DNA of 31,957 nt from a virus. Where the stretch lies: IMG/VR virus record IMGVR_UViG_3300047510_001116, positions 1 to 31,957 of that record; one strand, written 5' to 3'. Below, piece after piece: positions 10,517 to 31,164 of the stretch (position 1 is its first letter; each line of letters begins with the position of its first letter). Position numbers and translations under genes: made by a program. The notes beneath the pieces are model-generated. The model was not told the DNA's origin and ran no database searches. It saw only the letters and a list, made by a program, of their open reading frames with translations.

Positions 10517-10599
10517 TGTCGGTAAGAGGACTTGAACCTCCACGTCATAAAGACACTGGAACCTAAACCCAGCGCGTCTACCAATTCCGCCATACCGAC
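10517..10599 (-). tRNA. tRNA-Leu (UAG)
   Basis: Acceptor stem GTCGGTA / TACCGAC is perfect, discriminator A. The anticodon stem CTGGG / TCCAG holds loop TTTAGGT, anticodon UAG (reads CUA). The D-arm and T-arm (GGTTCAAGTCC) are canonical and a long class II variable arm is present, as required for Leu. No encoded CCA. Last tRNA of the cluster in the direction of transcription. Confidence 0.95.
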
Positions 10600-10603
10600 G
10601 AGT

Positions 10604-10620
10604 GGGGGTTGTCAACCCCC
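10604..10620. repeat. Perfect palindromic hairpin beside tRNA-Leu
   Basis: A 7-bp stem GGGGGTT / AACCCCC with a 3-base loop, five bases before the tRNA-Leu 5' end. Its centre contains TTGACA on the minus strand, but no -10 follows at the right distance. It may be a processing signal or a relic promoter/terminator. Confidence 0.5.
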
Positions 10621-10636
10621 TGTGCTAGGCTCGCCA

Positions 10637-10673
10637 CCTATTTTGTATTCAGTTGGAAAAATAGGAAACCAAC
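10637..10673 (-). ncRNA. Candidate H-type RNA pseudoknot in the Thr-Leu gap
   Basis: Minus-strand RNA order: GTTGG (10673-10669), 3-base loop, CCTATTTT (10665-10658), 1 base, CCAAC (10656-10652), 7-base loop, AAAATAGG (10644-10637). The two stems (5 and 8 bp, all Watson-Crick) interleave with loop lengths that fit an H-type pseudoknot. The whole gap 10600-10883 has no supported gene. It also holds a hairpin TGAAGG / CCTTCA and the CGGTAC hairpin after tRNA-Thr. Whether this is a separate RNA or a spacer of the tRNA precursor is unknown. Confidence 0.4.
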
Positions 10674-10865
10674 CACACGGAAGGGGTTTTGTGGTTATCC
10701 ACCACCAAGTTTTTAACTAGAACCTGGAAACTAGGCGGGAGTTATCCCATCCGCACCAGGGTAAGATTTAAGTCATTCCAAGACTCGGGATTGAAGGGGA
10801 ACCTTCACCGACCAGGGTTTTTTACGTGTCTCCATCACGGGCATTAAGGGGATTGACTCCACCAT

Positions 10866-10882
10866 CGGTACATAAAGTACCG
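10866..10882. repeat. Hairpin just 3' of tRNA-Thr
   Basis: Perfect 6-bp stem CGGTAC / GTACCG with a 5-base loop, beginning two bases after the tRNA-Thr 3' end in the transcript direction. No T-tract, so more likely a processing or stability element than a terminator. Confidence 0.5.
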
Positions 10883-10883
10883 A

Positions 10884-10955
10884 AGCCCTTGACTGGATTT
10901 GAACCAGCGACCAACGGTTTACAAAACCGTTGCTCTACCACTGAGCTACAAGGGC
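10884..10955 (-). tRNA. tRNA-Thr (UGU)
   Basis: Acceptor GCCCTTG / CAAGGGC perfect. The D-arm (GTAGCTCAGTGGTAGAGC), T-arm (GGTTCAAATCC) and anticodon stem ACGGT / ACCGT with loop TTTGTAA give UGU (reads ACA). Discriminator U, as in many Thr tRNAs. CCA not encoded. Confidence 0.95.
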
Positions 10956-10986
10956 GAAAGACCTGCATATTATACAGGATTTTGGA

Positions 10987-11667
10987 TCAGATGACAAGGG
11001 TTTTTTCATGACCGACCCTACAGGTGGGATCTAGCCAGATATCAAACCCAACATCTTTTGCATCATGACAGAATGCAACATCTTCAGAACAAACATCTTG
11101 AATGTCTTCTCCAATATTTAGTAACTTTGGAGCAAACCAAGGATACTGCATTTTTTCAAAAACACCTTGTTTAATTAGTACCCAACCAAAACCAATGTAG
11201 TCAACTTTGATTGGTTCTTTCTTAGTGGACATATCTTCTGTTGTCAGAAATTGATATGAACCATGTTGTTTGAAAAACTCATCATCCATTGTTTCTACTA
11301 CTGGAGTATAGAAACCACCAGAAGCAGCACCTCCAGGTTGTGAATACCAACCAGAAGCAATATCTGTATCCATATCAACTAGTTTCTGAAACATTTCATT
11401 ATTAAATGCAATGTCAGAATCAATCCACATCATATAATCATACTTTAGTCCATTGAAGGGAGTTTGATTCTTACCTCTGGATACATCAGCACCTGCACAT
11501 TTACAACGTGCATAGTTTACCATACTTGAATACTGTTGAGATACTTTGAATCTACCACCTTTAGATGAAACGTATGATAGTAGTTCAAGAAAACTAACTA
11601 GAAAATCCCCAGAGTAATATCTTCCAGGTAAACAAAAAACAATATCTTTATCTTGAAGTGAAGTCAT
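10987..11667 (-). CDS. Glycosyltransferase-like protein (GT-A fold)
   Basis: A 226-residue protein. After a Rossmann-like start (KDIVFCLPGRYYSGDFLVSF) it contains LKYDYMMWIDSDIAFNNEMF. The WIDSD element is the DxD-type motif that binds the metal and nucleotide sugar in GT-A glycosyltransferases. The C-terminal part (SEDVAFCHDAKDVGFDIWLD, then VGHEKTLVI) matches the closing acidic/His motifs of the same fold. Proteins of this kind are frequent in cyanomyoviruses. Possible substrates are phage DNA or proteins, or host surface sugars; the sequence does not decide. No signal peptide. It sits between tRNA-Met and tRNA-Thr. Confidence 0.82.
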   Translation of the reverse strand: MTSLQDKDIVFCLPGRYYSGDFLVSFLELLSYVSSKGGRFKVSQQYSSMVNYARCKCAGADVSRGKNQTPFNGLKYDYMMWIDSDIAFNNEMFQKLVDMDTDIASGWYSQPGGAASGGFYTPVVETMDDEFFKQHGSYQFLTTEDMSTKKEPIKVDYIGFGWVLIKQGVFEKMQYPWFAPKLLNIGEDIQDVCSEDVAFCHDAKDVGFDIWLDPTCRVGHEKTLVI

Positions 11668-11684
11668 AAAAAATAATTATAGTA

Positions 11685-11757
11685 TGCTGGTTGAGGGGAT
11701 TGAACCCACCTTAGCCGAATTATGAGTTCGGTGCATTCACCAGATTGCTAAACCAGC
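11685..11757 (-). tRNA. tRNA-Met, elongator type (CAU)
   Basis: Acceptor GCTGGTT / AACCAGC perfect, discriminator A. The anticodon stem CCGAA / TTCGG holds loop CTCATAA, anticodon CAU. The normal G-C first pair excludes an initiator tRNA. A CAU anticodon could also be the lysidine-modified Ile tRNA, but a separate tRNA-Ile(UAU) lies next in the cluster, which favours Met. Confidence 0.88.
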
Positions 11758-11768
11758 AACAAACAAAA

Positions 11769-12146
11769 CTATTTTATATTAAGAGCTCTGTATGTTGAAG
11801 TTAAAGAATGACAATTTGGACATAATACTCTAAGATTTTCCCTCTTTGAATTTGTTCGGTCTCCATCTATGTGATCTATTTCTAGAGGAACATTTCCTGT
11901 ATGTGGATTAATTTTAGACCACCCACATTGACTGCACTTATAGTTTGATTCATTTAATAAGTATCGTCTAATATATCCAGAAACATAATTTCCTCTAATT
12001 CTTCCTTCAATATTTCCATTAAGCCATTCATTAATGTAAACTCGTTGATCTTCATTTCTTTGACATTTGGTGGAACAATATTTTCCAGATTTTTGAGACG
12101 GTGAATATTTAAATTGGTTTGAACAAAAAATACAAGTACCAATCAT
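11769..12146 (-). CDS. HNH endonuclease, free-standing
   Basis: A 125-residue nuclease. The N-terminus carries a zinc finger (CIFCSNQFKYSP, then YCSTKCQR). The C-terminal half is a typical HNH domain: YKCSQCGWSK, then PLEIDHIDGDRTNSKRENLR (the catalytic His-Asp-His core), then VLCPNCHSLTSTY with the second zinc-binding pair. Such genes are usually mobile homing endonucleases that cut related phage genomes at a site near their insertion point. Here it lies between tRNA-Ile and tRNA-Met, a common refuge for homing genes in T4-like phages. It has its own late-promoter sequence 22 bases upstream. No intron is associated with it. Confidence 0.93.
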   Translation of the reverse strand: MIGTCIFCSNQFKYSPSQKSGKYCSTKCQRNEDQRVYINEWLNGNIEGRIRGNYVSGYIRRYLLNESNYKCSQCGWSKINPHTGNVPLEIDHIDGDRTNSKRENLRVLCPNCHSLTSTYRALNIK

Positions 12147-12167
12147 AATAGTAGTTAGTTCTATGGT

Positions 12168-12175
12168 TATTTATA
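12168..12175 (-). promoter_or_regulatory. T4-type late promoter of the HNH gene
   Basis: Exact TATAAATA on the minus strand between tRNA-Ile and the HNH gene, the usual distance from the start at 12146. Confidence 0.65.
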
Positions 12176-12191
12176 CATGTGAACTAACCAA

Positions 12192-12263
12192 TGGGGATAC
12201 TGGGGATTGAACCCAGACTAAGCCCTTATAAGGAGCCCGCTCTAACCATTAAGCTATACCCCC
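12192..12263 (-). tRNA. tRNA-Ile (UAU)
   Basis: Acceptor GGGGGTA / TATCCCC, discriminator A, D-stem GCTT / GAGC, T-arm CTGGG / CCCAG with TTCAATC. The anticodon stem GGCTC / GGGCT (with G-U pairs) holds loop CTTATAA, so positions 34-36 are UAU, which reads AUA. Most bacteria read AUA with a lysidine-modified CAU tRNA, so a UAU Ile tRNA is unusual. Confidence 0.85.
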
Positions 12264-12269
12264 AAGAAA

Positions 12270-12449
12270 TCAAGGAGCGTCATTATTGAGTTCGGTATGT
12301 ATTCGTATGAGATCCTTAACTTCTTCTGTATATGGAACAATCACTGCATCTCCATATTCACTGGTGATAGTAAACGATTCACCATTCTCTACTCTTTCCA
12401 TGAGATTATCAAAATCAGATTGAAATTCTTCTACAGTAAATTTTTCCAT
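12270..12449 (-). CDS. Phd/YefM antitoxin-like protein
   Basis: A 59-residue protein lying six bases before tRNA-Ile. MEKFTVEEFQSDFDNLMERV followed by ENGESFTITSEYGDAVIVPY resembles the N-terminal DNA-binding fold of Phd/YefM antitoxins (a helix ending in a Leu-rich face, then GESFxIT..GxAVIVP). The acidic helical tail EEVKDLIRIHTELNNDAP is short compared with true antitoxins (75-90 residues). No toxin gene (RelE, Doc or YoeB type) is adjacent: neighbours are tRNA-Pro and tRNA-Ile. It may be an orphan antitoxin that neutralises a host toxin, or a small autoregulator. The family link comes from motif memory and needs a profile search. Confidence 0.65.
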   Translation of the reverse strand: MEKFTVEEFQSDFDNLMERVENGESFTITSEYGDAVIVPYTEEVKDLIRIHTELNNDAP

Positions 12450-12467
12450 GATTGCAATGTTTATAAG

Positions 12468-12541
12468 TCGGAACGATAGGACTTGAACCTACGACTTCCA
12501 GCTCCCAAAGCAGGCGCTCTACCAAACTGAGCTACGTTCCG
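12468..12541 (-). tRNA. tRNA-Pro (UGG)
   Basis: Acceptor CGGAACG / CGTTCCG perfect, discriminator A. Anticodon loop TTTGGGA gives UGG (reads CCA). T-arm GTAGG / CCTAT with TTCAAGT. The anticodon stem CCTGC / GCTGG has one U-U mismatch. The mature 5' end lies 11 bases after the promoter -10 box. Confidence 0.92.
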
Positions 12542-12552
12542 TTAACTTGTAT

Positions 12553-12581
12553 AGTATATATGAGGGGTCTGGGTTTGTCAA
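12553..12581 (-). promoter_or_regulatory. Sigma70-type promoter for tRNA-Pro and following genes
   Basis: Minus strand: TTGACA (12581-12576), 17 bases, TATACT (12558-12553). The last ten bases (CATATATACT) are identical to those of the hli promoter. The -35 again lies in a hairpin loop. Confidence 0.85.
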
Positions 12582-12589
12582 CCCCTCAT
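12560..12589 (-). terminator. Hairpin overlapping a stop codon and the tRNA-Pro promoter
   Basis: Perfect 8-bp stem ATGAGGGG / CCCCTCAT (12589-12582 with 12567-12560), 14-base loop, no strong T-tract. It covers the stop codon of the zinc-ribbon gene and the promoter -35. Weak terminator or attenuator. Confidence 0.5.
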
Positions 12590-12837
12590 CTGATCTCAAA
12601 ATCCAGTCTCTTAACTTTACGCTGCTTGCGTTGTTCCTGAAACTGAAGATCCTGTTTCGTCAGAACTTGATCCCGACGCTGTGACCGTGCCCCACTGATA
12701 ATTTCTACTAGGGATAGATCCAGTCCGCTGATATTCCCACCACGGATGGACGTAAGGTTGCTGCACTGGCAACACCTGAGTTGGGATGGGTGCTCCTCTA
12801 ATTGCTTCCCGCAATTCCTGCATCTGATAACTAACAT
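12586..12837 (-). CDS. Com-like zinc-ribbon protein
   Basis: An 83-residue protein with two cysteine pairs: MLVIRCRNCGKQLEEHPSQ, then RCCQCSN, a zinc-ribbon resembling Mu Com-type translational regulators. It continues SGLDLSLVEII and ends in a basic helix KQDLQFQEQRKQRKVKRLDF. I recall small cyanophage and cyanobacterial proteins with the same order of motifs (zinc ribbon, DLS, RRLDFE tail). AAGGA lies upstream of the ATG. Most of it overlaps a 106-codon frame on the same strand, and its codons show unusually many G or C third bases, as expected if two proteins constrain the DNA. Likely a nucleic-acid-binding regulator. Confidence 0.75.
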   Translation of the reverse strand: MLVIRCRNCGKQLEEHPSQLRCCQCSNLTSIRGGNISGLDLSLVEIISGARSQRRDQVLTKQDLQFQEQRKQRKVKRLDFEIR

Positions 12838-12937
12838 CTCTAATCATTCCTTTTAATTCTTCAAGTTCTTCGTGAATATCTTGATGATGAAACCGCAGAG
12901 GTTTCTGAATCAGTTCATTGAATTTTTTCTTTTTCAT
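12617..12937 (-). CDS. Coiled-coil protein overlapping the zinc-ribbon gene in another frame
   Basis: A 106-residue frame starting MKKKKFNELIQKPLRFHHQD. Residues 20-48 (IHEELEELKGMIRDVSYQMQ) form a convincing coiled coil. From about residue 50 it becomes Pro- and Ser/Gly-rich low complexity. The first 33 codons lie upstream of the zinc-ribbon gene and have no other use. The rest shares 221 bases with it, shifted by one base. The N-terminal half looks real; the tail could be a by-product of the overlap. A long coding overlap of this size is unusual in phages of this type. Confidence 0.6.
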   Translation of the reverse strand: MKKKKFNELIQKPLRFHHQDIHEELEELKGMIRDVSYQMQELREAIRGAPIPTQVLPVQQPYVHPWWEYQRTGSIPSRNYQWGTVTASGSSSDETGSSVSGTTQAA

Positions 12938-12954
12938 AAAATAAAGAGACTGAA

Positions 12955-13026
12955 TGGGCGATACTGGATTTGAACCAGTGACTTACCACTTGTAAGGAGG
13001 CCACTCTACCACTGAGTTAATCGCCC
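12955..13026 (-). tRNA. tRNA-Val (UAC)
   Basis: Acceptor GGGCGAT / ATCGCCC perfect, discriminator A. Anticodon loop CTTACAA gives UAC (reads GUA). D-stem ACTC / GAGT and T-arm CTGGTTCAAATCCAG are canonical; the anticodon stem has one U-U mismatch. Confidence 0.93.
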
Positions 13027-13145
13027 TGGCGGCCCTTTTGTTTGGAGGAGGTTGAGCCGAACCCCACTATAAGAATAAAGTTTGGACCTTTATCCTATTT
13101 GTATGGAAGGAGAGCTCTTGGGCGAACCCGCAGGATCACTTCCAA
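13027..13145 (-). other. Gene-free gap with nested RNA structure
   Basis: No open frame. On the minus strand TGGAAG pairs with CTTCCA, ATCCT with AGGAT (interleaved), and a GGG-TTCG-CCC hairpin lies in the connecting segment. ATAAAG / CTTTAT follows. The stems are short, so this is weaker than the other two candidate pseudoknots. Confidence 0.25.
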
Positions 13146-13217
13146 CTCCAGAGGCAGGATTTGAACCTGCGACCAAGGAGTTAACAGCTCCCCGCTCTGC
13201 CACTGAGCTACTCTGGA
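13146..13217 (-). tRNA. tRNA-Asn (GUU)
   Basis: Acceptor TCCAGAG / CTCTGGA perfect, discriminator G. Anticodon stem GGGAG / CTCCT with loop CTGTTAA gives GUU (reads AAC and AAU). D-arm GTAGCTCAGTGGCAGAGC and T-arm GCAGGTTCAAATCCTGC are canonical. The 133 bases upstream to tRNA-Gly (13218-13350) hold no gene, only weak hairpins. Confidence 0.95.
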
Positions 13218-13350
13218 TTAATGGTAGGAGGGGAGAGCATCACCTTAAGCCTCCCTCTTTACTTCACTTGGACACAGAATACTAAGACCAAGGAGAGGTT
13301 TTGGTTCCTACATTTGGCGTCTACTTAGTTAATCGCTAAGGACTACCAAG

Positions 13351-13422
13351 AGCGGCTGACCCGATTTGAACGGGCGACATCCAACTTGGAAGGATGGCGT
13401 TCTACCACTGAACTACAACCGC
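13351..13422 (-). tRNA. tRNA-Gly (UCC)
   Basis: Acceptor GCGGTTG / CAGCCGC (one G-U), discriminator U. Anticodon loop CTTCCAA gives UCC (reads GGA). D-stem GTTC / GAAC, T-arm CCCGTTCAAATCGGG. It is preceded by a structured leader of about 150 bases from its own promoter. Confidence 0.95.
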
Positions 13423-13426
13423 AATT

Positions 13427-13572
13427 GAGAGAGATCCATACAATGAAACAGAGTCGCAATACAAGTCATAGGTCTGTTTCTCACCGACTTGCAGCTGGGG
13501 TTTTTCACTCTCTCTTTTTCAAGTAGGTTTACTGTTGTTTATCCTATAAAACCCACTACAAAATGGATAAAC
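13427..13572 (-). ncRNA. Structured leader RNA upstream of tRNA-Gly, with candidate pseudoknot
   Basis: The promoter at 13581-13609 predicts a start near 13574. The RNA would begin with stem GTTTATCC / GGATAAAC (13572-13565 with 13544-13537). Then an outer stem GAGAGAG / CTCTCTC (13514-13508 with 13433-13427) encloses two interleaved stems: CAAGTC / GACTTG (13491-13486 with 13467-13462) and GAAACAGA / TCTGTTTC (13480-13473 with 13452-13445). The loops (5, 5 and 9 bases) suit an H-type pseudoknot. No coding frame is present. T4 also encodes small stable RNAs of unknown role in its tRNA cluster. Confidence 0.5.
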
Positions 13573-13580
13573 AGAAGACA

Positions 13581-13609
13581 ATTATAAAGTAAAAACTTTA
13601 AATTGTCAA
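13581..13609 (-). promoter_or_regulatory. Consensus sigma70 promoter for the tRNA-Gly leader
   Basis: Minus strand: TTGACA (13609-13604), 17 bases, TATAAT (13586-13581): a perfect consensus. It begins two bases after the tRNA-Arg 3' end. Confidence 0.92.
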
Positions 13610-13610
13610 G

Positions 13611-13684
13611 CGTTTCAGGAGGGACTTGAACCCCCGACCAACTGCTTAGAAGGCAGATGCTCTATCCAACTGAGCTACTGAAAC
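13611..13684 (-). tRNA. tRNA-Arg (UCU)
   Basis: Acceptor GTTTCAG / CTGAAAC perfect, discriminator G. Anticodon loop CTTCTAA gives UCU (reads AGA). D-arm GTAGCTCAGTTGGATAGAGC and T-arm GGGGGTTCAAGTCCCTC are canonical. The mature 5' base lies eight bases after the promoter -10, so the leader is at most one to three bases. Confidence 0.95.
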
Positions 13685-13692
13685 ATGAAACA

Positions 13693-13721
13693 ATCATACC
13701 AGTCAAGGATCTGATTGTCAA
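13693..13721 (-). promoter_or_regulatory. Sigma70 promoter for tRNA-Arg, extended -10
   Basis: Minus strand: TTGACA (13721-13716), 17 bases, TGG plus TATGAT (13698-13693). It starts two bases beyond the 3' end of tRNA-Tyr. Confidence 0.88.
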
Positions 13722-13722
13722 G

Positions 13723-13804
13723 TGGGCAGGACTGGATTTGAACCAGTGAAGGCAGAGCCGTCTGATTTACAGTCAGATTCCTTTAACCACTCGGAAACCT
13801 ACCC
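13723..13804 (-). tRNA. tRNA-Tyr (GUA)
   Basis: Acceptor GGGTAGG / CCTGCCC, discriminator A. Anticodon stem TCTGA / TCAGA with loop CTGTAAA gives GUA (reads UAC and UAU). Class II variable arm and T-arm CTGGTTCAAATCCAG present. The promoter -10 ends four bases before the mature 5' end. Confidence 0.95.
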
Positions 13805-13806
13805 AT

Positions 13807-14253
13807 TCATTTTACCACATCCCCTGGCGGGCAGTCAAGGGCCCAAGGGGAACAAATTCTCATCTCTCCACCGAGAGACCTGCACTCATCAGTATAACAC
13901 ACATTAGTGTCAACTGGTTTTTCTGAGTACCTTGGAGGAGGAAGTCTAACAGTTCCGTCGTCTCCTGTCAAGCGTTGATATTCTCTGATTGCTCTATCAA
14001 CTTCTAATTCAATCCTTGACTCAATTTCCTTTTCTACATCTTTGGGTATTGGTATTTCCTGCGTTAACCCAAAATGTTGTATAATAGCATTATATAGTTT
14101 CCAAAGTTGTTTCTGATCTATTTGTAACCATCCAGATAATCCAGACACCAATAGTAAAACAATTGAGGAAATAATAAATCCTTTTACATACTTTGGATTT
14201 AACGTTGGTAATACTTTGAACTTACCTTCTTTAACTTCAAATAATTTAAACAT
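13807..14253 (-). CDS. 148-residue single-span membrane protein
   Basis: Begins MFKLFEVKEGKFKVLPTLNP. One hydrophobic helix follows at about residues 24-44 (VKGFIISSIVLLLVSGLSGW), then an acidic helix (IPIPKDVEKEIESRIELEVD), a Pro/Arg-rich stretch and a C-terminal part with four cysteines (VCYTDECRSLGGEMRICSPW, then DCPPGDVVK). The four Cys after a membrane helix suggest a disulfide-bonded domain outside the membrane. It overlaps the upstream 98-residue gene by eight bases. The tRNA-Tyr promoter lies inside its last codons. No family recognised; a lysis accessory (holin or spanin-like) is possible but unsupported. Confidence 0.7.
   Translation of the reverse strand: MFKLFEVKEGKFKVLPTLNPKYVKGFIISSIVLLLVSGLSGWLQIDQKQLWKLYNAIIQHFGLTQEIPIPKDVEKEIESRIELEVDRAIREYQRLTGDDGTVRLPPPRYSEKPVDTNVCYTDECRSLGGEMRICSPWALDCPPGDVVK
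13809..13838 (-). promoter_or_regulatory. Sigma70-like promoter for tRNA-Tyr, extended -10
   Basis: Minus strand: TTGACT (13838-13833), 18 bases, TGG plus TAAAAT (13814-13809). It lies in the 3' end of the preceding gene. Predicted initiation is at or within a few bases of the mature tRNA-Tyr 5' end. Confidence 0.65.
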
Positions 14254-14542
14254 CAGTCTGATCCCAAAATTGATCTAGAGCATTGTCTATAGCATCTTTA
14301 GGACTAGTCTTGTCTGAAGAATCTCTAAGTTTTTTTGTATCAAAGGTTAAAGTTGGAGTAATAGATCCGTTATCTTCAACTTTAATTTTTGCACCAAAAA
14401 TAGTTTTCTTTGGTTGAATGTTTAAAGTATTGTAAGATTCTAAAGATACTTCTAATTTGTCATTAGATGCTTTAAGATATCCTGCTTTTGCAATGACATC
14501 AACTATGTCTTTTTCATCATCAGGTAAATTATCTATTGACAT
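14246..14542 (-). CDS. 98-residue hypothetical protein
   Basis: Begins MSIDNLPDDEKDIVDVIAKA. An N-terminal helix is followed by a beta-like middle (KLEVSLESYNTLNIQPKKTI, then KIKVEDNGSITPTLTF) and a short C-terminal helix (SPKDAIDNALDQFWDQTDV). No motif, signal peptide or membrane span. A perfect late promoter lies 26 bases upstream, and a 7-bp hairpin fills almost the whole leader. It overlaps the next gene by eight bases, so both are probably late. Function unknown. Confidence 0.7.
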   Translation of the reverse strand: MSIDNLPDDEKDIVDVIAKAGYLKASNDKLEVSLESYNTLNIQPKKTIFGAKIKVEDNGSITPTLTFDTKKLRDSSDKTSPKDAIDNALDQFWDQTDV

Positions 14543-14543
14543 A

Positions 14544-14575
14544 GGGGAGATCTGCAGCTCTCCCCATTATTTATA
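14544..14575 (-). promoter_or_regulatory. Late promoter with hairpin leader
   Basis: Exact TATAAATA (14575-14568, minus). Two bases later begins GGGGAGA, which pairs with TCTCCCC (14565-14559 with 14550-14544), ending one base before the ATG at 14542. The predicted mRNA would start on the stem, and there is no free Shine-Dalgarno sequence outside it. Confidence 0.7.
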
Positions 14576-14581
14576 GTGTAA

Positions 14582-14944
14582 TTATACCCTTGAATAACAG
14601 ACGTTGGCGACGCCTTGACCTGGGTGTGCAATAGTGGAGAACGCACCATAAGACAGATCAAGATCTCGGCCACCAACATAAGGGCCCCGATCATTCACAC
14701 GCACAACTACAGACTTGCCATTTCGTTGATTAGTCACTCTAAGTCTTGTACCGAATGGCAGCCATTTATGTGCTACCGATTTACCATATGCGTTATACCG
14801 TTCACCATTGGCGGTGGTTTGTCCATGATAACCATCACCAACTCCATAATGTGAAGCGAGGGTACAACCACTCGCTGCCTTTGCTTGGAGGGGTGCCAGT
14901 CCTACAGTTGCAACGGCGAGAATTGAAAGTGTTTTAAGTAGCAT
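14582..14944 (-). CDS. RlpA-like secreted double-psi beta-barrel protein
   Basis: A 120-residue protein with a signal peptide (MLLKTLSILAVATVGLAPLQ, cleavage near AKA-A). The mature part is an RlpA-type double-psi beta barrel: ASHYGVGDGYHGQTTANGER, AHKWLPFGTRLRVTNQRNGK and VVVRVNDRGPYVGGRDLDLS, covering the family motifs TANGE, AAHxxLPxGT and NDRGP..GRxLDLS. Some RlpA proteins are lytic transglycosylases that cut peptidoglycan lacking stem peptides; others have lost activity. Here it would act in the host periplasm, probably aiding lysis alongside the GH24 lysozyme. The SPOR domain of bacterial RlpA is absent. No obvious promoter is seen directly upstream (14945-15043 holds only weak hairpins). 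Confidence 0.9.
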   Translation of the reverse strand: MLLKTLSILAVATVGLAPLQAKAASGCTLASHYGVGDGYHGQTTANGERYNAYGKSVAHKWLPFGTRLRVTNQRNGKSVVVRVNDRGPYVGGRDLDLSYGAFSTIAHPGQGVANVCYSRV

Positions 14945-15043
14945 TAATTTTAATAGAACTCTACATCCTAATAGAGAAACCGCACTTCCCTCCTCTCAGA
15001 GGGGAATCTCCTAGGCTCTAAATTTGGTCTCAAACTCTAATTA

Positions 15044-15068
15044 CAAAAATCCCCCCATTTCTGGAGGG
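15044..15068 (-). terminator. Intrinsic terminator after tRNA-Ala
   Basis: Minus strand: stem CCCTCC / GGGGGG (15068-15063 with 15056-15051, one U-G pair), 6-base loop, then ATTTTTG. It begins three bases after the tRNA-Ala 3' end and closes the Ser-Ala transcript. Confidence 0.7.
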
Positions 15069-15070
15069 AA

Positions 15071-15143
15071 TGGAGAATAGCGGACTTGAACCGCTGACAT
15101 CCTGCTTGCAAAGCAGGCGCTCTACCAACTGAGCTAATTCCCC
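15071..15143 (-). tRNA. tRNA-Ala (UGC)
   Basis: Acceptor GGGGAAT / ATTCTCC (one G-U), discriminator A. Anticodon stem CCTGC / GCAGG with loop TTTGCAA gives UGC (reads GCA). D-arm TAGCTCAGTTGGTAGAGC and T-arm AGCGGTTCAAGTCCGCT are canonical. Its first ten bases also encode the end of the preceding protein. Confidence 0.96.
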
Positions 15144-15295
15144 AAGAGGTATTCTACTGTGGTTGCAACATCATTCATTGCATCACGAAGATCTGGGCGT
15201 TGTCCAGATTCCTGTCTTACAACAGGCCGATGATCATCGGTGAGAGTCCATCTCCATTGTTTCATGTCTTCACAATACCAGAGATTGATTTTCAT
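15134..15295 (-). CDS. 53-residue hypothetical protein ending inside tRNA-Ala
   Basis: The frame begins MKINLWYCEDMKQWRWTLTD and continues with RQESGQRPDLRDAMNDVATT, ending EYLLGN. The stop codon TAG is the TAG at positions 8-10 of tRNA-Ala, so ten bases are shared. The Trp-rich N-terminus and polar helix look like a folded small protein. I recall similar short cyanophage proteins, from memory only. It is placed between tRNA-Ser and tRNA-Ala and so must be on the same precursor; RNase P cutting at the tRNA 5' end would remove its stop codon from the message. Confidence 0.7.
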   Translation of the reverse strand: MKINLWYCEDMKQWRWTLTDDHRPVVRQESGQRPDLRDAMNDVATTVEYLLGN

Positions 15296-15319
15296 AAAAG
15301 AATAGAAATGAACTCTAAA

Positions 15320-15405
15320 CGGAAGCGGTAGGATTTGAACCCACGAACGCTATTAACGTTGGTTGTTTTCAAGACAACTGCCTTAAACCACTCGGCCACG
15401 CTTCC
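15320..15405 (-). tRNA. tRNA-Ser (UGA)
   Basis: Acceptor GGAAGCG / CGCTTCC perfect, discriminator G. Anticodon stem GTTGT / ACAAC with loop CTTGAAA gives UGA (reads UCA). A long class II variable arm (AACGTTAATAGCGTT) is present, as required for Ser. First tRNA of the cluster, about 12 bases from its predicted start. Confidence 0.95.
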
Positions 15406-15423
15406 AATTTGATTTATTTAGTA

Positions 15424-24824: not shown

Positions 24825-27008
24825 CTATTTATTTTTATAGGCTTTCCACGCGGTTGCGTATGCAATTCCCTTTTCATTCTTAGTCAAACCATCTTTGGAA
24901 TAACCCTTCTTGATGTGCTTGACCATTCTCTCATACTTATCACCAGGAGGTGACTTCTCTTCAATGTTCTCAACTTCTTCATTTGCTTTCTTCATCTTAG
25001 GAGCACTTGCTGGGTGGGTGTCCTTATAGAAAGTTGGTGAACGTCTTGCCTTATCAGCATTCTGCTTCTCTCTCTTTGCCTTTTCAGATGCATGGAACAT
25101 CTTACTATAGCGAGAAGTTTCTTTCTTCTCGGAGTCACTTACATTTGGAACAGCATCTTTGCTTGGGGGTCTACCATAGACAGAACCCTTTCTTGCCTTT
25201 TCCATTTGCTTTTTAACTCTGTCCATGGGGAAAGATTGTTTTGCCTCATCTAGTTCAACTTCTTCCTTGTATCCCTTTGCTTTAGGAACTCCCTTTGAAG
25301 GAACACAGTTAGGAACTTCACGACCACCTTTCTTCTTCATACCAACTTGAGTATAACCCTTCCAGCATGGATCATCCTTCTCTTCAACATACTCAACCTC
25401 TTCTGCTTGCTTTTTGTTTTTTGCAATCATCTTGAAGTCGGAAAGACTCTTTCCTTTCTTCGTTGGTTTTGGTTGAGCGTTTACAATCTGATTGCTGAAG
25501 TCTGGACCTTGAGTTGAAAGATCAACTTCATGAAGGTTCTCTTCAACATGCATATCAGCAGGTTTCTTCTGAGTGGTTGCCTTCTGTTGAAGTGCAACCT
25601 TCTGTTTGTTCAGAGCAAGTTGTCTTCTCTGAATCTGTTGACCCTGTTGAGATTGTTGTGCAGTTTGAGCGGATTGTGGTTGTGCAGTTTGGGTGGTTGG
25701 TTGTTGTGGCATTGGCTTCTTCTTAGCAACCATTTGTGGTTGCATTGGAGCCTGTTCATTCATACTACCAACACCCTTGACCTTTGGGTTGATTACAACA
25801 CCATCCTTCTTTTTCCCAACGAGTTTAATTTGATTTTCTGCCTCGTTCATGAAATAATCAAAATCCTCATCCGAGATATTCTCAAAGATCTCTAGAACTT
25901 CATCCTCATTAAATGCAATTTCATTCTCAATGAAATAGTCCTTGAGAATATGGAACTGTTCTAGCATCTCCATATCAATCTCAAACTCTTCCCTGTTGTA
26001 CTGTTTCTTCTCAGCAGGAGTTAGAGCAGCTCTTTGAGCACCTCTTGCAGCCTGTTTTGCTTTTACTGCAGGATCATTAGACTTGTGTGCATAACCATGT
26101 AGTCCTGGTGAAGAAGAAGCAGTCTTACGGAAGTCTCCTCTTTGCTTTCTAGCGTAGTTAGATCTTTGCGCTTCTTTGTTCTTATCACCATATGTTGATT
26201 TCTTTTCAAGTGCAGATGCTCTATCTGCTGCTTCACCACCACCAGCAGGCTTACGTAGTTTGGTTTCATCATAACCACGTTTTGCCATTGCAGTTGCTTC
26301 GTCTAGTTCAACTTCTTCCTTGCGGGTTGACATTGCCTTAGCAATTGCAGCACGACGATTCTTGATGTACTTATCGTTCTTGTCGTTCTTCTTACCGTCG
26401 TTATCTACGTCTGCATCTTCCTTACCAACTGGATCAAGTGCTTCATTCTTTGACTTCATCAAAGCACCTTTACCATACTGCTTCTCAATAGATGCTCTAA
26501 CCATATCTAGAGCTTTCTGTCTAGTCTCAGCAGCTTTTTTAGGATCATGTGGTTTTGTAGAACCAGATGATTTTGAAGGATATCTATTGTTACCATCTAC
26601 GCCGCCTCTTTCCATGCGACGATCCTTCATTCTATCATAATCCTCTTCTGGAAGAAGTTCAACTTCTTCTTTTCTCATTTCTTTTTCTTGTTCGTTTCTC
26701 TTAGAAACTTTCTCTTTGATCTTTGCCTTGAGTTCTGGTTTTGAAGCAACGTTATAGATTGCAAGTGTTGGAGCACTGTAGGTCTTTCCGTTGAACTCTA
26801 CTTTAGTGCCCATGTAGGACATTGCAGCTTCACTGATAAGATCCATTGCATATGCAAGTGAATCACCAGCAAGATGTTCTTTAAGATGAGCTTCTACTAG
26901 TTCCTCATCGTTGTCAAACATCACAAGTGCCTTTTCTACAAGACCTTGTGCCTTCATCAATTTAGATGGATCAACGTGAAGATATGCTGCGAGTTTAGAT
27001 AGTTCCAT
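24825..27008 (-). CDS. Large disordered, motif-repeat protein, probably head-associated
   Basis: A 727-residue protein. Residues 1-110 are a folded helical domain (MELSKLAAYLHVDPSKLMKA; ISEAAMSYMGTKVEFNGKTY). The rest is mostly disordered: Lys/Glu/Asp-rich, with a Gln/Thr/Pro tract (residues about 410-460). A short acidic motif recurs (KEEVELLPEE, KEEVELDEATAM, KEEVELDEAKQS, AEEVEYVEEK, NEEVENIEEK). Two sites read L-D-E-A, matching the T4 prohead protease gp21 rule (I/L-x-E, cut after Glu). The C-terminal modules DPCWKGYTQVGMKKKG and GDKYERMVKHIKKGYSKDGL recur in cyanophage structural proteins, from memory. I infer a head protein processed during maturation. The start lies 14 bases inside the end of the upstream gene. 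Confidence 0.75.
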   Translation of the reverse strand: MELSKLAAYLHVDPSKLMKAQGLVEKALVMFDNDEELVEAHLKEHLAGDSLAYAMDLISEAAMSYMGTKVEFNGKTYSAPTLAIYNVASKPELKAKIKEKVSKRNEQEKEMRKEEVELLPEEDYDRMKDRRMERGGVDGNNRYPSKSSGSTKPHDPKKAAETRQKALDMVRASIEKQYGKGALMKSKNEALDPVGKEDADVDNDGKKNDKNDKYIKNRRAAIAKAMSTRKEEVELDEATAMAKRGYDETKLRKPAGGGEAADRASALEKKSTYGDKNKEAQRSNYARKQRGDFRKTASSSPGLHGYAHKSNDPAVKAKQAARGAQRAALTPAEKKQYNREEFEIDMEMLEQFHILKDYFIENEIAFNEDEVLEIFENISDEDFDYFMNEAENQIKLVGKKKDGVVINPKVKGVGSMNEQAPMQPQMVAKKKPMPQQPTTQTAQPQSAQTAQQSQQGQQIQRRQLALNKQKVALQQKATTQKKPADMHVEENLHEVDLSTQGPDFSNQIVNAQPKPTKKGKSLSDFKMIAKNKKQAEEVEYVEEKDDPCWKGYTQVGMKKKGGREVPNCVPSKGVPKAKGYKEEVELDEAKQSFPMDRVKKQMEKARKGSVYGRPPSKDAVPNVSDSEKKETSRYSKMFHASEKAKREKQNADKARRSPTFYKDTHPASAPKMKKANEEVENIEEKSPPGDKYERMVKHIKKGYSKDGLTKNEKGIAYATAWKAYKNK
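24826..24833 (-). promoter_or_regulatory. Possible late promoter (variant)
   Basis: AATAAATA on the minus strand, one mismatch to TATAAATA, 41 bases before the 57-residue gene. It overlaps the stop region of the 727-residue gene. Confidence 0.45.
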
Positions 27009-28257
27009 TCTTAGATTTCTTTTTACTACTATTTAGTGTTGAGGGAGTTTTGTGTGCATAAGAAACTACTGGTTGACCAGGAGTTAATTTTTGGACTGCT
27101 GCACGATAAACATCAGTTCCAATTTCCCAGATAACTTTCTCGGTTATGTTATCTAACCATGTTCTAAATGTTCTTCCCTCTTCATCCACAAGAATTACAT
27201 AATTTGATCCACGGAAAATAATTTTTCCAACCACACCAGTGCTCAAACTCTCAACAATATCTCCAAGATTAAAAATGTTTTCTTGGAAATACTCTTCCCT
27301 CAAAGATTGTTGATCTAGTTTTGGAGCAATCTGATAAAGATCTTCCTCAAGGTTCATAGAACGACGAACCTGCATGTAGATGGATTTAGCATCTGCAGAT
27401 TTAACATCCTTGGGGAGTCCCTTCTTAAACGAATCATAATCATTATCTTGAGCTGCCTTTCTCATCTTAGATGCAGACATACCTTCTACATCTTCCGAGT
27501 CAGGATCTCTTTCACCTGCACTTACTACATCTAGTTTACCAAAGTTATATGTCTTGCCATTATATTTACCAGTGATATTGGTAAACTCTTTGACACGATC
27601 ATCACCAACTACAATCTTAACATTATCATAACCTTGTGCATGAAGTCCTTTCAGAACATCAAAGATGTTTCTACCACCAGAGGGATCACTAACGATATTT
27701 CCAGCATGGTGCGGGAACATCGTTTGCATAACATTAGTCTTTGTTTGGAAGTCCAAAGGATTTTTCTTTGGATCTTGAGACTGACTTGGATAGATCATGT
27801 AATCAGATCCATCCTTATATGCCTCATCCGCAACTCTATCAATCAGTTTTAAGTGACCGATATGTGGTGGATTGAATCTGCCGAAAGTAATTACTACAGA
27901 TCCACCTCCCTCATTGCGAGGAACCATTGGTTCTTCTTCACCATCTTTCTTTTGATCTTTTGGTTTTTCTTCCTTAGGTGGCTCTTGTTGTACCTGTTGC
28001 TGTTGACCAGGAGTTTGACCACCTGCTGGCATCTGTCCCTGAGGCATTGGAGGGGTAGTTAAGGGTGATCCAGATTGTAACTTTTGTTTTTCCTCTGGAG
28101 TCAAAGGAACTAGACGGGCACCACCCTCTGCTTTGGCAACAATGTTACCTTTAGCATCTGCGTAGTATCCTTTTCCCGTATGAATTAAACCTTTCTTTTC
28201 CGCTTCCAATCCTGCCTTAGTTCTAGCTTCACACAAAAAGTCGTTAAAAGATTTCAT
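26995..28257 (-). CDS. HxGH nucleotidyltransferase-like protein with capsid-targeting-like N-terminus
   Basis: A 420-residue protein. Residues 1-10, MKSFNDFLCE followed by ARTKAGLEAE, closely resemble the T4 internal-protein capsid-targeting peptide (IPIII: MKTYQEFIAE, cut by gp21 after Glu10), and L-C-E fits the gp21 rule. Residues 25-55 are a small beta module (GYYADAKGNIVAKAEGGARL), then a Pro/Gln-rich linker (60-115). The catalytic domain follows: VVITFGRFNPPHIGHLKLID (HIGH motif, His132/His135) with EGMSASKMRKAA as the matching C-terminal signature of cytidylyltransferase/NMN-adenylyltransferase enzymes. Residues 300-420 form a beta-rich tail. Likely reaction: nucleotidyl transfer, perhaps NAD synthesis. 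Packaging in the head is inference. Confidence 0.85.
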   Translation of the reverse strand: MKSFNDFLCEARTKAGLEAEKKGLIHTGKGYYADAKGNIVAKAEGGARLVPLTPEEKQKLQSGSPLTTPPMPQGQMPAGGQTPGQQQQVQQEPPKEEKPKDQKKDGEEEPMVPRNEGGGSVVITFGRFNPPHIGHLKLIDRVADEAYKDGSDYMIYPSQSQDPKKNPLDFQTKTNVMQTMFPHHAGNIVSDPSGGRNIFDVLKGLHAQGYDNVKIVVGDDRVKEFTNITGKYNGKTYNFGKLDVVSAGERDPDSEDVEGMSASKMRKAAQDNDYDSFKKGLPKDVKSADAKSIYMQVRRSMNLEEDLYQIAPKLDQQSLREEYFQENIFNLGDIVESLSTGVVGKIIFRGSNYVILVDEEGRTFRTWLDNITEKVIWEIGTDVYRAAVQKLTPGQPVVSYAHKTPSTLNSSKKKSKNGTI

Positions 28258-28281: not shown

Positions 28282-28289
28282 TATTTATT
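28282..28289 (-). promoter_or_regulatory. Possible late promoter (variant)
   Basis: AATAAATA on the minus strand, 24 bases before the start of the HxGH protein, overlapping the stop codon of the KxDG protein. Confidence 0.45.
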
Positions 28290-29481
28290 TGTCCCACTCT
28301 TTATCTACGGTAAAATTCGCAACAGAAAACTCAAGTCTGTCAACAAGTTTCATTGCACGACCAGATTTAATTGCAACGAATCCTTCTGGTGCGGTAACAC
28401 GATATCCATTTCCGTCTTTGAGGAAAGTACCGATGTCCTTAACCTTTTCTAGTTGACGAATCACCATCAGTTTTGCTTCTGTGAGATTCTTGTATGCAGC
28501 GACAGTCATGTAGATAGAACGTTCATTGGTAGAGATAAACTTCATACCATCCTGTTTTACTTTCTCCCACTTGGATTTTGCAGCAGGAGTCTTCTTAGTA
28601 TTGATCTCTTTGTCAATCAATGCAGAGTAATACTTTGCAAAGTCAGTGACAACTTTCTTCACAGGAGGAATTGCAGACCCACCACGAATGTATGTATTGA
28701 AGAACTGTTTGAAGATTGCATTGAATGCATAACGATCAGATCCTTTCATCACATCAAGGAACTTAGATGCTTGTCTGAGAGAACCATCTGCACGATTCAC
28801 TGCTGCATTGAACTTTACTAGTTCTTGAGGAGTAAAGTTTGCAACACCACTTGCGTCACTGAAGTCGGAAGAGAAAACAGCAATATCTTTATTTCCTTGG
28901 TATGGAGATACATCCACACCAAACCCAGCAGACATTTCCGCCAAGGATGCACCAGAATAAGAAGTATGGAAAACAATGCCAATCTTAGCACTGTTGACAC
29001 GTTGACCCAAATCCGTATCAAGAGGGATAGCATAGGTAATAGTGTTTGGTGTAAAAGTTACGCAACGTTTGCCTCCAATAGTAGTTACCTTCTTTGTATC
29101 TTTCGTGAAGAGAAGATCTCCTTGGATAACTCCTTTGATGTTAAGTTGCGAAAGATATTTAAGACACTCTTTCAGAATATGATTAAGTCCACTGGTTGGA
29201 TACATTTGATCAATACCATATTCACTGACACAAACTTTAGGTTGTGTTTTAGCAAACACAGATTTGTTTCCAACAAAAAATACTTGGGTAATTGGATCAA
29301 TGCCACAAATGATAGCAGGCGCACCGTCCCACTTAGTTGTGACTTTAACAGATTTGTTCTTGTCTCCCTGAGAGAGCATTCCTCCCAGTGACTTTAAGAA
29401 AGCAATAGCAGATCTCCCCCCCTCGCTTCCGAGATTGAGGATATCGTCTTCAAGGTGCTCTAGGTGTGTGTTCTTTGCCAT
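28285..29481 (-). CDS. KxDG nucleotidyltransferase/ligase-like protein
   Basis: A 398-residue protein beginning MAKNTHLEHLEDDILNLGSE. VKVTTKWDGAPAIICGIDP contains K50-W-D-G, which looks like motif I (KxDG, covalent adenylation lysine) of DNA/RNA ligases and capping enzymes. VFFVGNKSVFAKT and GVIQGDLLFTKDT could be motifs III/IIIa. Near the end FVAIKSGRAMKLVDRLEFS could supply motif V. Large soluble helical segments lie between. I recall this family in cyanophages as an uncharacterised DUF. Whether it ligates RNA or DNA, or is a degenerate relative in the virion, cannot be told. It lies directly upstream of the HxGH nucleotidyltransferase. Confidence 0.7.
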   Translation of the reverse strand: MAKNTHLEHLEDDILNLGSEGGRSAIAFLKSLGGMLSQGDKNKSVKVTTKWDGAPAIICGIDPITQVFFVGNKSVFAKTQPKVCVSEYGIDQMYPTSGLNHILKECLKYLSQLNIKGVIQGDLLFTKDTKKVTTIGGKRCVTFTPNTITYAIPLDTDLGQRVNSAKIGIVFHTSYSGASLAEMSAGFGVDVSPYQGNKDIAVFSSDFSDASGVANFTPQELVKFNAAVNRADGSLRQASKFLDVMKGSDRYAFNAIFKQFFNTYIRGGSAIPPVKKVVTDFAKYYSALIDKEINTKKTPAAKSKWEKVKQDGMKFISTNERSIYMTVAAYKNLTEAKLMVIRQLEKVKDIGTFLKDGNGYRVTAPEGFVAIKSGRAMKLVDRLEFSVANFTVDKEWDK

Positions 29482-29495
29482 GACTGTATTCTACC

Positions 29496-31019
29496 TCATT
29501 CTACCTTGGCATAGACGGCTGATAGGTCACTTTGCGAAGCGGCATAGTAGTACCAAGAGCGCACCAGCTGATCTCTCTGAGCTGGAGTTAATCCGTCTAT
29601 AATTTTGGCAAGTTTCATGTTTATATATTTTGAATATCTCCATGAATGTCCTTTCTCAGATTTGGTATCATTTGGATCTGGAACACCTCTTGATATATTA
29701 ACTTTAGTTTGAGGATCATCAACAAAGTCATTCAAAAAATTTGGATGCTTAGGTTTTAACTCTTTACAGATGTTGAATATATCATCAGTAACCTCTGTAC
29801 GATTAGAAGCTGATGCTCTAGTAGGATGCGTCTTAGTTTTAATTGATGCGTTTCCACTTTTTACACCAAGACTTTTTCCTGGAAAAAGTTTTTCAATATA
29901 CCCATCCACAATACCACCACCAATTTTTCCCTGAGCAGCAGACAATCCTTTAATTTCTCCCTGCCACGAAAGATCGGATCCAGTATTTCTAAATTGAATT
30001 CTATCTTCTTTAGCTGTACCCCACTTAACATATACGTCAATTGATTTGAATGTTCCCTCAAGTCCTCTAAAACTTACCTGACTAACATCCTTGGGAATAT
30101 TTTTGTGATTCTTAACAGACCAACGACCATCTCCACTTTCAATCTTTTTCAAAGAAATTCCAATTAAATCTCCAGAATCAAAATATTCTTGCATCTTTTG
30201 ATTTAGAACTTCCAGAGAAGGAGATGCTGTTAGTTGAGAAAGACCTGAAGTTATAAACTCATTACTAATAATGTAAATATCTGCTGGACTCCACTTATTA
30301 AGATCTGAGAAATTTTTACCACCTGGATATATCTTATCACACCTCTTAAAGGTATTTTCAATTTGTTTTACTACATTACTTCCTCTATGGAAAGTATATG
30401 TTTTAGAAGAACTAATCTCTCTAATTTTTTTATAAATTAAATTTGCACCTTTTATATGAGATTCAATCCACTTTGGATTTACAGTCAACAAAACTTCAAT
30501 ATCATTTGACCACAATGAAGTTGGATTTAAATCGCAGTTTGCAGAATATACTGTTTGCAAATCATCAAAACTCCAGTTATTTGCGGTAAGATCTTGAGTT
30601 CTACTCCACCTCAAAGCACAGAATAAAGCTTGTGCAGATTCATTCTTTGCAGTTTCAATTGCACCAGCACCAGATCCACCAGCTGTTGGTTTAATTTCCA
30701 ATCGTATCTTATCGCCAGCAGCTGCATCAGATGGATTTAGTGGGACATCTATTACATAATCATCTCGTATGAAAGGTATATTGTTTTTTTCTAATTCGGC
30801 AGCAACTTGATTAGTTGCCAAATCACGATTGGATTTTTTAACCAATACCTTCATGTAAAATTTTATCTTTGCCCTATCTGTGCCAACATTCACCTTATCA
30901 ATATTGTAACAGGCAAAGTTATCTCCACCCAAAGAATTCATTACTGCTAGAACTTTTGTTTTTAAAACTCCAGACAGCATTGGTGCAGAAGTTGACTTCT
31001 TCGTTCCGCGTTTAGCCAT
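29496..31019 (-). CDS. 507-residue phage protein, function unknown
   Basis: Start chosen at MAKRGTKKSTSAPMLSGVLK (31019); the longer frame uses a TTG and crosses a terminator hairpin. Residues 20-130 include DRAKIKFYMKVLVKKSNRDL and DKIRLEIKPTAGGSGAGAIE, where I-R-L-E-I-K-P followed by a Gly-rich loop looks like a nuclease-type ExK strand. Then NESAQALFCALRWSR. A later segment (SPADIYIISNEFITSGLSQL; IGISLKKIESGDGRWSVKN) is reminiscent of PD-(D/E)XK or restriction-endonuclease-like proteins that recognise D-I-Y and S-L-K. The C-terminal 150 residues are helical. Similar large proteins accompany the KxDG gene in other phages, as far as I recall. The nuclease idea is tentative. Confidence 0.7.
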   Translation of the reverse strand: MAKRGTKKSTSAPMLSGVLKTKVLAVMNSLGGDNFACYNIDKVNVGTDRAKIKFYMKVLVKKSNRDLATNQVAAELEKNNIPFIRDDYVIDVPLNPSDAAAGDKIRLEIKPTAGGSGAGAIETAKNESAQALFCALRWSRTQDLTANNWSFDDLQTVYSANCDLNPTSLWSNDIEVLLTVNPKWIESHIKGANLIYKKIREISSSKTYTFHRGSNVVKQIENTFKRCDKIYPGGKNFSDLNKWSPADIYIISNEFITSGLSQLTASPSLEVLNQKMQEYFDSGDLIGISLKKIESGDGRWSVKNHKNIPKDVSQVSFRGLEGTFKSIDVYVKWGTAKEDRIQFRNTGSDLSWQGEIKGLSAAQGKIGGGIVDGYIEKLFPGKSLGVKSGNASIKTKTHPTRASASNRTEVTDDIFNICKELKPKHPNFLNDFVDDPQTKVNISRGVPDPNDTKSEKGHSWRYSKYINMKLAKIIDGLTPAQRDQLVRSWYYYAASQSDLSAVYAKVE

Positions 31020-31020
31020 T

Positions 31021-31053
31021 AAAAAAGAGGGGGTTAATTCCCCTCTATTTATT
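31021..31053 (-). terminator. Terminator overlapped by a variant late promoter
   Basis: Minus strand: stem AGAGGGG / CCCCTCT (31046-31040 with 31032-31026), then six T, ending right before ATG at 31019. AATAAATA (31053-31046) abuts the stem, so a late transcript would begin with the hairpin, as at 14544-14575. No free Shine-Dalgarno sequence lies between hairpin and ATG. Confidence 0.65.
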
Positions 31054-31164
31054 TCTCTTAAAGACTTTTGGGTGGAGAGAGAATCCAATTAGAGTCTCTC
31101 TCATTGCTTCTCGGATACCTTTATCAGATATCTCCTTCTTTTCTATTCTCTGAGTAGTATACAT
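31045..31164 (-). CDS. Possible 39-residue protein
   Basis: A frame starting inside the 3' end of mazG: MYTTQRIEKKEISDKGIREA, then MRETLIGFSLHPKVFKRNK. The second half lies outside mazG and reads like a helical, basic small protein. Its stop falls in the late-promoter element. GAAGGAGATAT in mazG could serve a shorter product starting at the inner Met (31104). Evidence is limited to composition and position. Confidence 0.35.
   Translation of the reverse strand: MYTTQRIEKKEISDKGIREAMRETLIGFSLHPKVFKRNK

Follow-up and report, generated by a model that had tools for sequence, protein, structure and literature searches.

The window analysed here, a 31,957-base fragment of the virus record IMGVR_UViG_3300047510_001116 (IMG/VR), carries on its minus strand a gene for a 420-residue HIGH-family nucleotidyltransferase, the N-terminus of which, MKSFNDFLCEARTKAG (MKSFNDFLCE-A), resembles the peptide that directs the internal proteins (IPs) of phage T4 into the head. 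The virus, a marine cyanophage, probably delivers this tagged enzyme together with its DNA, because relatives that bear such a tag have been detected in purified virions. It is fairly likely that the protein is an adenylyltransferase similar to nicotinamide mononucleotide adenylyltransferase (NMNAT), which is made late, loaded by means of its tag, cut after Glu10 and ejected, and whose likely role is the supply of NAD or a related dinucleotide. According to Pfam and PHROG, the majority of the genes in the window match families of T4-like cyanophages, among them those of DNA primase, NrdA, NrdB, MazG and a head protein.

The initial annotation of this DNA had described the open reading frame (ORF), its T4-like N-terminal peptide and its HIGH motif, and all of these are confirmed. 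In T4 (record NC_000866), ipII and ipIII both start with MKTYQEFIAEA, ipI begins with MKTFKEF and has TITE-A further on, and gp23 contains the site GSFLTE-A. Mutagenesis of IPIII assigned residues 4 and 7 to targeting and residues 8 and 10 to processing (PMC9026906). The window protein has F4 and F7 at the targeting positions and L8, E10 and A11 at the processing positions. Like IPI, IPII and IPIII, it possesses a ten-residue N-terminal peptide with equal spacing and the key residues, followed by a predicted gp21-type cut before an alanine, and the mature parts are unrelated and have only the tag in common. In contrast, the T4 IPs are small inhibitors of restriction enzymes (PMC12373910) of the GmrSD type, whereas in the present case a large multi-domain enzyme of cyanobacterial phages bears the tag.

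Homologs of the enzyme were found in 531 phage records (in 221 of these, the alignment spans at least 80% of the query), and the tag is present in 28 of 33 non-redundant relatives (99 loci). In a set of 43 different peptides, conservation is seen at positions 2, 4 (F, Y or L), 7 (F), 8, 10 and 11 and variation at positions 3, 5, 6 and 9, a pattern that is partly circular since the peptides were chosen by a motif. In an alignment of 30 relatives made without motif selection, the conservation of E10 is 90% or higher. As judged from these alignments, the targeting and processing positions defined in T4 are the conserved ones in the enzyme family.

The tag is more than a product of chance. The motif follows 9 of 8856 internal methionines in the loci, compared with 88 of 1910 gene starts, although the loci of the enzyme, having been retrieved through their similarity, are not independent samples. 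Of the 88 genes, 22 do not encode the nucleotidyltransferase; two of these are controls from T4, and one is clearly a false positive. Written as a 30-base DNA pattern and run against 15 complete phage genomes (2.9 Mb), the motif matched 18 times, mostly in the enzyme gene, T4 internal proteins or further cargo candidates, and the reversed pattern matched nowhere. Since a looser motif yields false hits in whole genomes (2-oxoglutarate oxygenases, UvsX), a stricter one was used for counting. The notion that the tag is a mere helix shared by homology was rejected, because unrelated proteins and the T4 IPs bear it as well. In four loci (L009-L012), an untagged enzyme has a tag-like stretch, VKTLKEYIEES, past the catalytic core.

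Relatives of the enzyme have been detected in the virion proteomes of S-SM1 (PMC3037559), S-SCSM1 (PMC9602691), S-SZBM1 (2 peptides; PMC9146016) and S-CREM2 (3 peptides; PMC10665884). All four are tagged, with the N-termini MKKFSAFLNEA (S-SM1), MKSFLQFLKEA (S-SCSM1), MRFRQFIIEA (S-SZBM1) and MKNFSSFLTEA (S-CREM2). In S-PM2 (L112:2791-4570), the adjacent gene of the DUF6267 family is in two parts, and the nucleotidyltransferase lacks the tag and is joined to the C-terminal half of DUF6267; according to PMC3037559, this untagged version was not detected in the S-PM2 virion. Sites of the gp21 type (SFLAE-A, ILTE-A) are also present in the capsid proteins of the phages themselves.

The authors of PMC9602691 and PMC10665884 raised the possibility of contamination by a highly expressed protein, and the small numbers of peptides in S-SZBM1 and S-CREM2 fit such a view, in which an abundant late protein adheres to the preparations and the N-terminal peptide has another use. 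We regard this as highly improbable, since the relatives come from four independent proteomes, the pattern is that of a peptide whose packaging function has been proven in T4 and all non-structural virion enzymes of S-CREM2 except two endolysins are tagged. These non-structural virion proteins comprise an S-adenosylmethionine (SAM) hydrolase, a kinase, a Cas9-like nuclease, the NMNAT-like enzyme and the two endolysins. The SAM hydrolase starts with MKDFDSFLEE, the kinase with M(V)KRFDAFLTE and a further small virion protein with MKDLHSFLTE, while the Cas9-like nuclease gp12 (L123:7704-10313) has LRFASFMAEA behind a 16-residue extension (SRWSNWSTGS...) and resembles g128 of S-CRM01. When applied to all called ORFs of S-CREM2, the strict motif picks four genes, for the SAM hydrolase, the kinase, the small protein and the NMNAT-like enzyme, and all four products are virion proteins (Fisher p 0.001). 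The kinase of S-CRM01, cited as a virion protein in PMC10665884, begins with MISFDQFLSEK.

A structural or assembly protein that remains in the particle would also be found in virions, and presence there is all that has been shown so far; moreover, the small N- and C-terminal domains of the enzyme could bind capsid or DNA. That the protein is not injected is nevertheless distinctly unlikely, since T4 proteins with such a tag are ejected, and the invariance of the catalytic motifs speaks for a function as an enzyme.

The predicted timing of expression points in the same direction as the virion data. The cyanophage late promoter has the consensus NATAAATA with the core ATAAATA (PMC2984593), and this core occurs within 80 bases upstream of 30 of 62 tagged relatives, compared with 92 of 737 other genes. 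Its presence upstream of the window's enzyme gene fits a synthesis alongside the head proteins. The role in head targeting that the initial annotation had proposed is thus well supported by the conserved determinants, the tagged relatives in virions, the unrelated tagged virion enzymes, the late promoter motif and the gp21-type sites of the capsid proteins.

The tag is followed directly by a small domain (residues 12-60) that is modelled with confidence (predicted local distance difference test, pLDDT, mostly 81-90) and that recurs in the S-CREM2 kinase (two copies), the Cas9-like protein and S-CRM01 g128 (BLASTP E 9e-9 to 6e-5; pattern GL-SDGHG-Y-D...VART-GEL). This domain may belong to the loading code or may be a DNA- or capsid-binding module. 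We lean towards the broader view that head loading in marine T4-like phages follows a general code, a ten-residue tag that is often followed by the small GHG-Y-D domain, for packing an interchangeable first-strike kit (NMNAT-like enzyme, RNA ligase, SAM hydrolase, kinase, Cas9-like nuclease, acetyltransferase) against cyanobacterial and other marine hosts, and that the tag can switch between the partners of an enzyme pair.

Further tagged proteins were noticed. The acetyltransferase-like g185 of S-CRM01 (L135:2546-2941; MKTFDEFLTEG) is a candidate for a tagged enzyme. Two small families, PHROG 1742 (MKSFKSFLSES...) and a DUF6321-type family (MKTFKQYITEA...), are tagged and located near terminase genes (L019:27312-28126; L079:8883-9200; L133:9283-11162), and are likely internal proteins of cyanophages. 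The hypothetical 54-residue gp61.1 of T4 itself (L134:1167-1331; NC_000866 18966-19130) starts with a peptide that resembles the capsid-targeting one, MKTFKEFIKED, and adjoins gp61 as the cyanophage cargo block does; it is possible that it is an overlooked T4 internal protein.

The enzyme matches CTP_transf_like of Pfam (E 3.9e-7) and PHROG 395, 'cytidyltransferase' (E 2.6e-97). The first histidine of its GRFNPPHIGH motif is replaced by threonine in many relatives. Foldseek gave NadD as the best match of the modelled core (E 8.2e-7), and structural re-alignment with VIA gave Z scores of 12 to 13.6, with phosphopantetheine adenylyltransferase (PPAT) at 13.6, NadM at 12.8 and an archaeal NMNAT also listed. 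The core of the model is therefore NMNAT/PPAT-like in fold. In profile searches with 30 members, NMNAT models matched 24, 19 and 17 of them and PPAT 4, so that NMNAT-type chemistry is somewhat more probable than not. Glycerol-3-phosphate cytidylyltransferase, the annotation used in PMC9146016, was rejected, as no such profile matched any of the 30 members. Neither the enzyme nor the DUF6267 protein has relatives in the PDB by sequence at the usual thresholds. The proposed NAD or nucleotide role is no more than suggested by the fold and the leading NMNAT profiles, but no curated NCBIfam equivalog cut-off is reached (TIGR00482: 22.4 bits vs 112.45; nadR: 13.6 vs 341).

Several observations weigh against the proposal of an injected, NAD-supplying enzyme. 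PPAT structures score as high as NMNAT, which means that the fold is not NMNAT-specific, and no NAD precursor gene has been shown beside the enzyme, although none was sought. All virion evidence comes from proteomes of relatives; the published virion sets are CsCl preparations for which no mature N-terminus was reported, and the tagged small genes S-SZBM1_191, S-SZBM1_192 and S-SCSM1_30 were undetected in virions. Finally, the gp21 rule I/L-x-E holds for the window protein, as had been claimed, but it is not universal: some close relatives have F-x-E, and V8 also occurs. Either the protease rule is looser in these phages or such copies would be cut poorly.

A different function is suggested by the DUF6267 gene that adjoins the enzyme gene. 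DUF6267 is a family of unknown function with the look of an RNA ligase: K50, D52 and G53 (KxDG) as well as E366, G367 and V369 (EGxV) are invariant in 29 members. For its model (pLDDT 85), Foldseek E-values are non-significant, and VIA re-alignment lists ligases with RNA ligases first, including T4 Rnl1 and Rnl2 and, with Z 9.0 over 180 residues, the RNA ligase of Naegleria. The protein shares both motifs with T4 RNA ligases 1 and 2 and NgrRnl, and VIA alone points to a similar fold (Z 7.2 to 9.0); it differs from them in the lack of detectable sequence similarity to PDB ligases, in its helical C-terminal part and in the packaging tag that it carries in some phages. It is a probable RNA-ligase-type enzyme.

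The tag is found on DUF6267 in several metagenomic phages and one Methylophilales phage (e.g. L013, MKSFNDFLTE-E). Among 73 distinct enzyme/DUF6267 pairs, which represent few independent lineages, it is on the enzyme only in 65, on DUF6267 only in 5, on both in 1 and on neither in 2. The rule that exactly one partner is tagged (70 of 73) is only approximate, because the motif missed two slightly altered enzyme tags among the five DUF6267-only pairs (L115, MKKFSEIIEA; L145, MKSFSEFKES). One tag per pair was not accepted as proof of a packaged complex, because of the few lineages and because the S-SZBM1 virion contains the enzyme without DUF6267.

It is conceivable that the packaged enzyme acts, together with DUF6267, on RNA ends or another nucleotide and not on NAD. 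The ligase-like features of the neighbor, the fusion in S-PM2, PHROG 455, which joins both domains, the tagging of one partner per pair by the motif used, and UPF0348 as the best, weak PDB sequence match are all in favor of this. The leading family matches of the enzyme are NMNAT profiles, however, DUF6267 was not seen in the S-SZBM1 virion, and S-SCSM1 and S-CREM1 have no DUF6267 beside the enzyme, which makes an action on RNA ends unlikely on balance.

For the preferred reading, an injected NMNAT-like enzyme, the following course of events can be proposed. The late-made protein would bind the prohead core via residues 1-10, with Phe4 and Phe7 responsible for targeting, and the prohead protease would cut after Glu10. 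The mature enzyme, starting at Ala11, would stay with the DNA and be ejected into the cell, where its most likely task would be to produce or replenish NAD (or a related dinucleotide) at time zero, as a counter to host defences that deplete NAD or damage RNA. The other proteins of the cargo (a SAM hydrolase, an RNA-ligase-like protein and a kinase) point to counter-defence or to an immediate control of the host.

Phages are known to counter host defences by restoring NAD. The enzyme has a possible NAD-restoring aim in common with NadV, NadM and NadR and with Adps and Namat of NARP1, and the HIGH-type domain also occurs in NadM and NadR. It differs from these systems by its probable delivery in the virion, by the absence of a NadV, Nudix or kinase domain and in that its enzymatic role is predicted.

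Neither the occurrence of NMNAT-like proteins in virions nor the T4 tag is in itself new. The NMNAT-like (cytidylyltransferase) proteins of S-SM1, S-SCSM1, S-SZBM1 and S-CREM2 are homologous to the window enzyme and have tagged N-termini, but the reports on them describe no targeting peptide and leave packaging or contamination undecided. In the open literature on cyanophage capsid targeting we found only a T4 review, in which cyanophages are mentioned once. What appears to be new is the link between the tag and these proteins, the extension of the tag to further virion enzymes and its presence on the RNA-ligase-like partner. The tag offers the missing explanation for enzymes whose status several groups left undecided: a sequence that predicts cargo and can be read from any genome settles the question in principle. 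For viruses that are among the most abundant in the ocean, it also yields candidates for injected enzymes that can be tested, and a packaging code known from coliphages is thereby extended to enzymes whose targets could be NAD, RNA, SAM and proteins within the first seconds after infection.

Table 1. Features of the nucleotidyltransferase gene and its neighbors in the window
Feature	Position	Strand	Basis
Tagged HIGH-family nucleotidyltransferase, 420 aa, ATG start	26995..28257	-	ORF; Pfam/PHROG; AlphaFold2 (AF2) model; PDB fold matches
Capsid-targeting peptide MKSFNDFLCE, predicted cut after Glu10	28228..28257	-	family conservation; T4 controls; T4 mutational data PMC9026906
Small beta domain, residues 12-60	28078..28224	-	pLDDT mostly 81-90; BLASTP; motif scan
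Linker, residues 61-118, mostly low confidence	27904..28077	-	pLDDT <50 at residues 68-108; length varies in alignment
Catalytic core, NMNAT/PPAT fold (model), about residues 118-304	27346..27903	-	Foldseek, VIA
HIGH motif GRFNPPHIGH, residues 126-135	27853..27882	-	sequence; G126, R127, G134, H135 invariant
Second motif MSASKMR, residues 260-266, ISxTxxR-type site	27460..27480	-	sequence; S263, R266 invariant
C-terminal beta domain, about residues 313-373, KOW-like by inspection	27139..27321	-	model strands 334-373; PHROG 4808/22379 matches
Late-promoter-like motif ATAAATA, directly ahead of the nucleotidyltransferase gene	28282..28288	-	consensus NATAAATA, PMC2984593
DUF6267 partner gene, probable RNA-ligase-type enzyme	28285..29481	-	Pfam E 7.8e-129; KxDG + EGxV; fold matches
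Downstream low-complexity protein, EEVELDEA repeats, possible cargo polyprotein	24825..27008	-	sequence; S-SZBM1 139
PHROG 1462 gene, same cassette; ATG start more likely near 31019	29496..31088	-	PHROG

On the minus strand, the enzyme gene is flanked by the long low-complexity gene and the DUF6267 gene (Table 1), in a block to which the PHROG 1462 and MazG genes also belong. In S-SZBM1, S-SM1, Syn9 and S-SCSM1, this block is located between the gp41/MazG region and gp61-nrdA-nrdB. All five cassette genes 89-93 of S-SCSM1 are annotated as virion proteins, among them the PHROG 1462 member S-SCSM1_90, and gene 139 of S-SZBM1, the positional counterpart of the low-complexity gene, encodes a virion protein. 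Besides its EEVELDEA repeats, the low-complexity protein of the window has further L/I/V-x-E sites, and perhaps it is cut into pieces by the prohead protease. In L036/L037, the low-complexity protein and the enzyme are fused (937 residues). Elsewhere in the window, 12 tRNA genes are located on the minus strand at 10517-15406.

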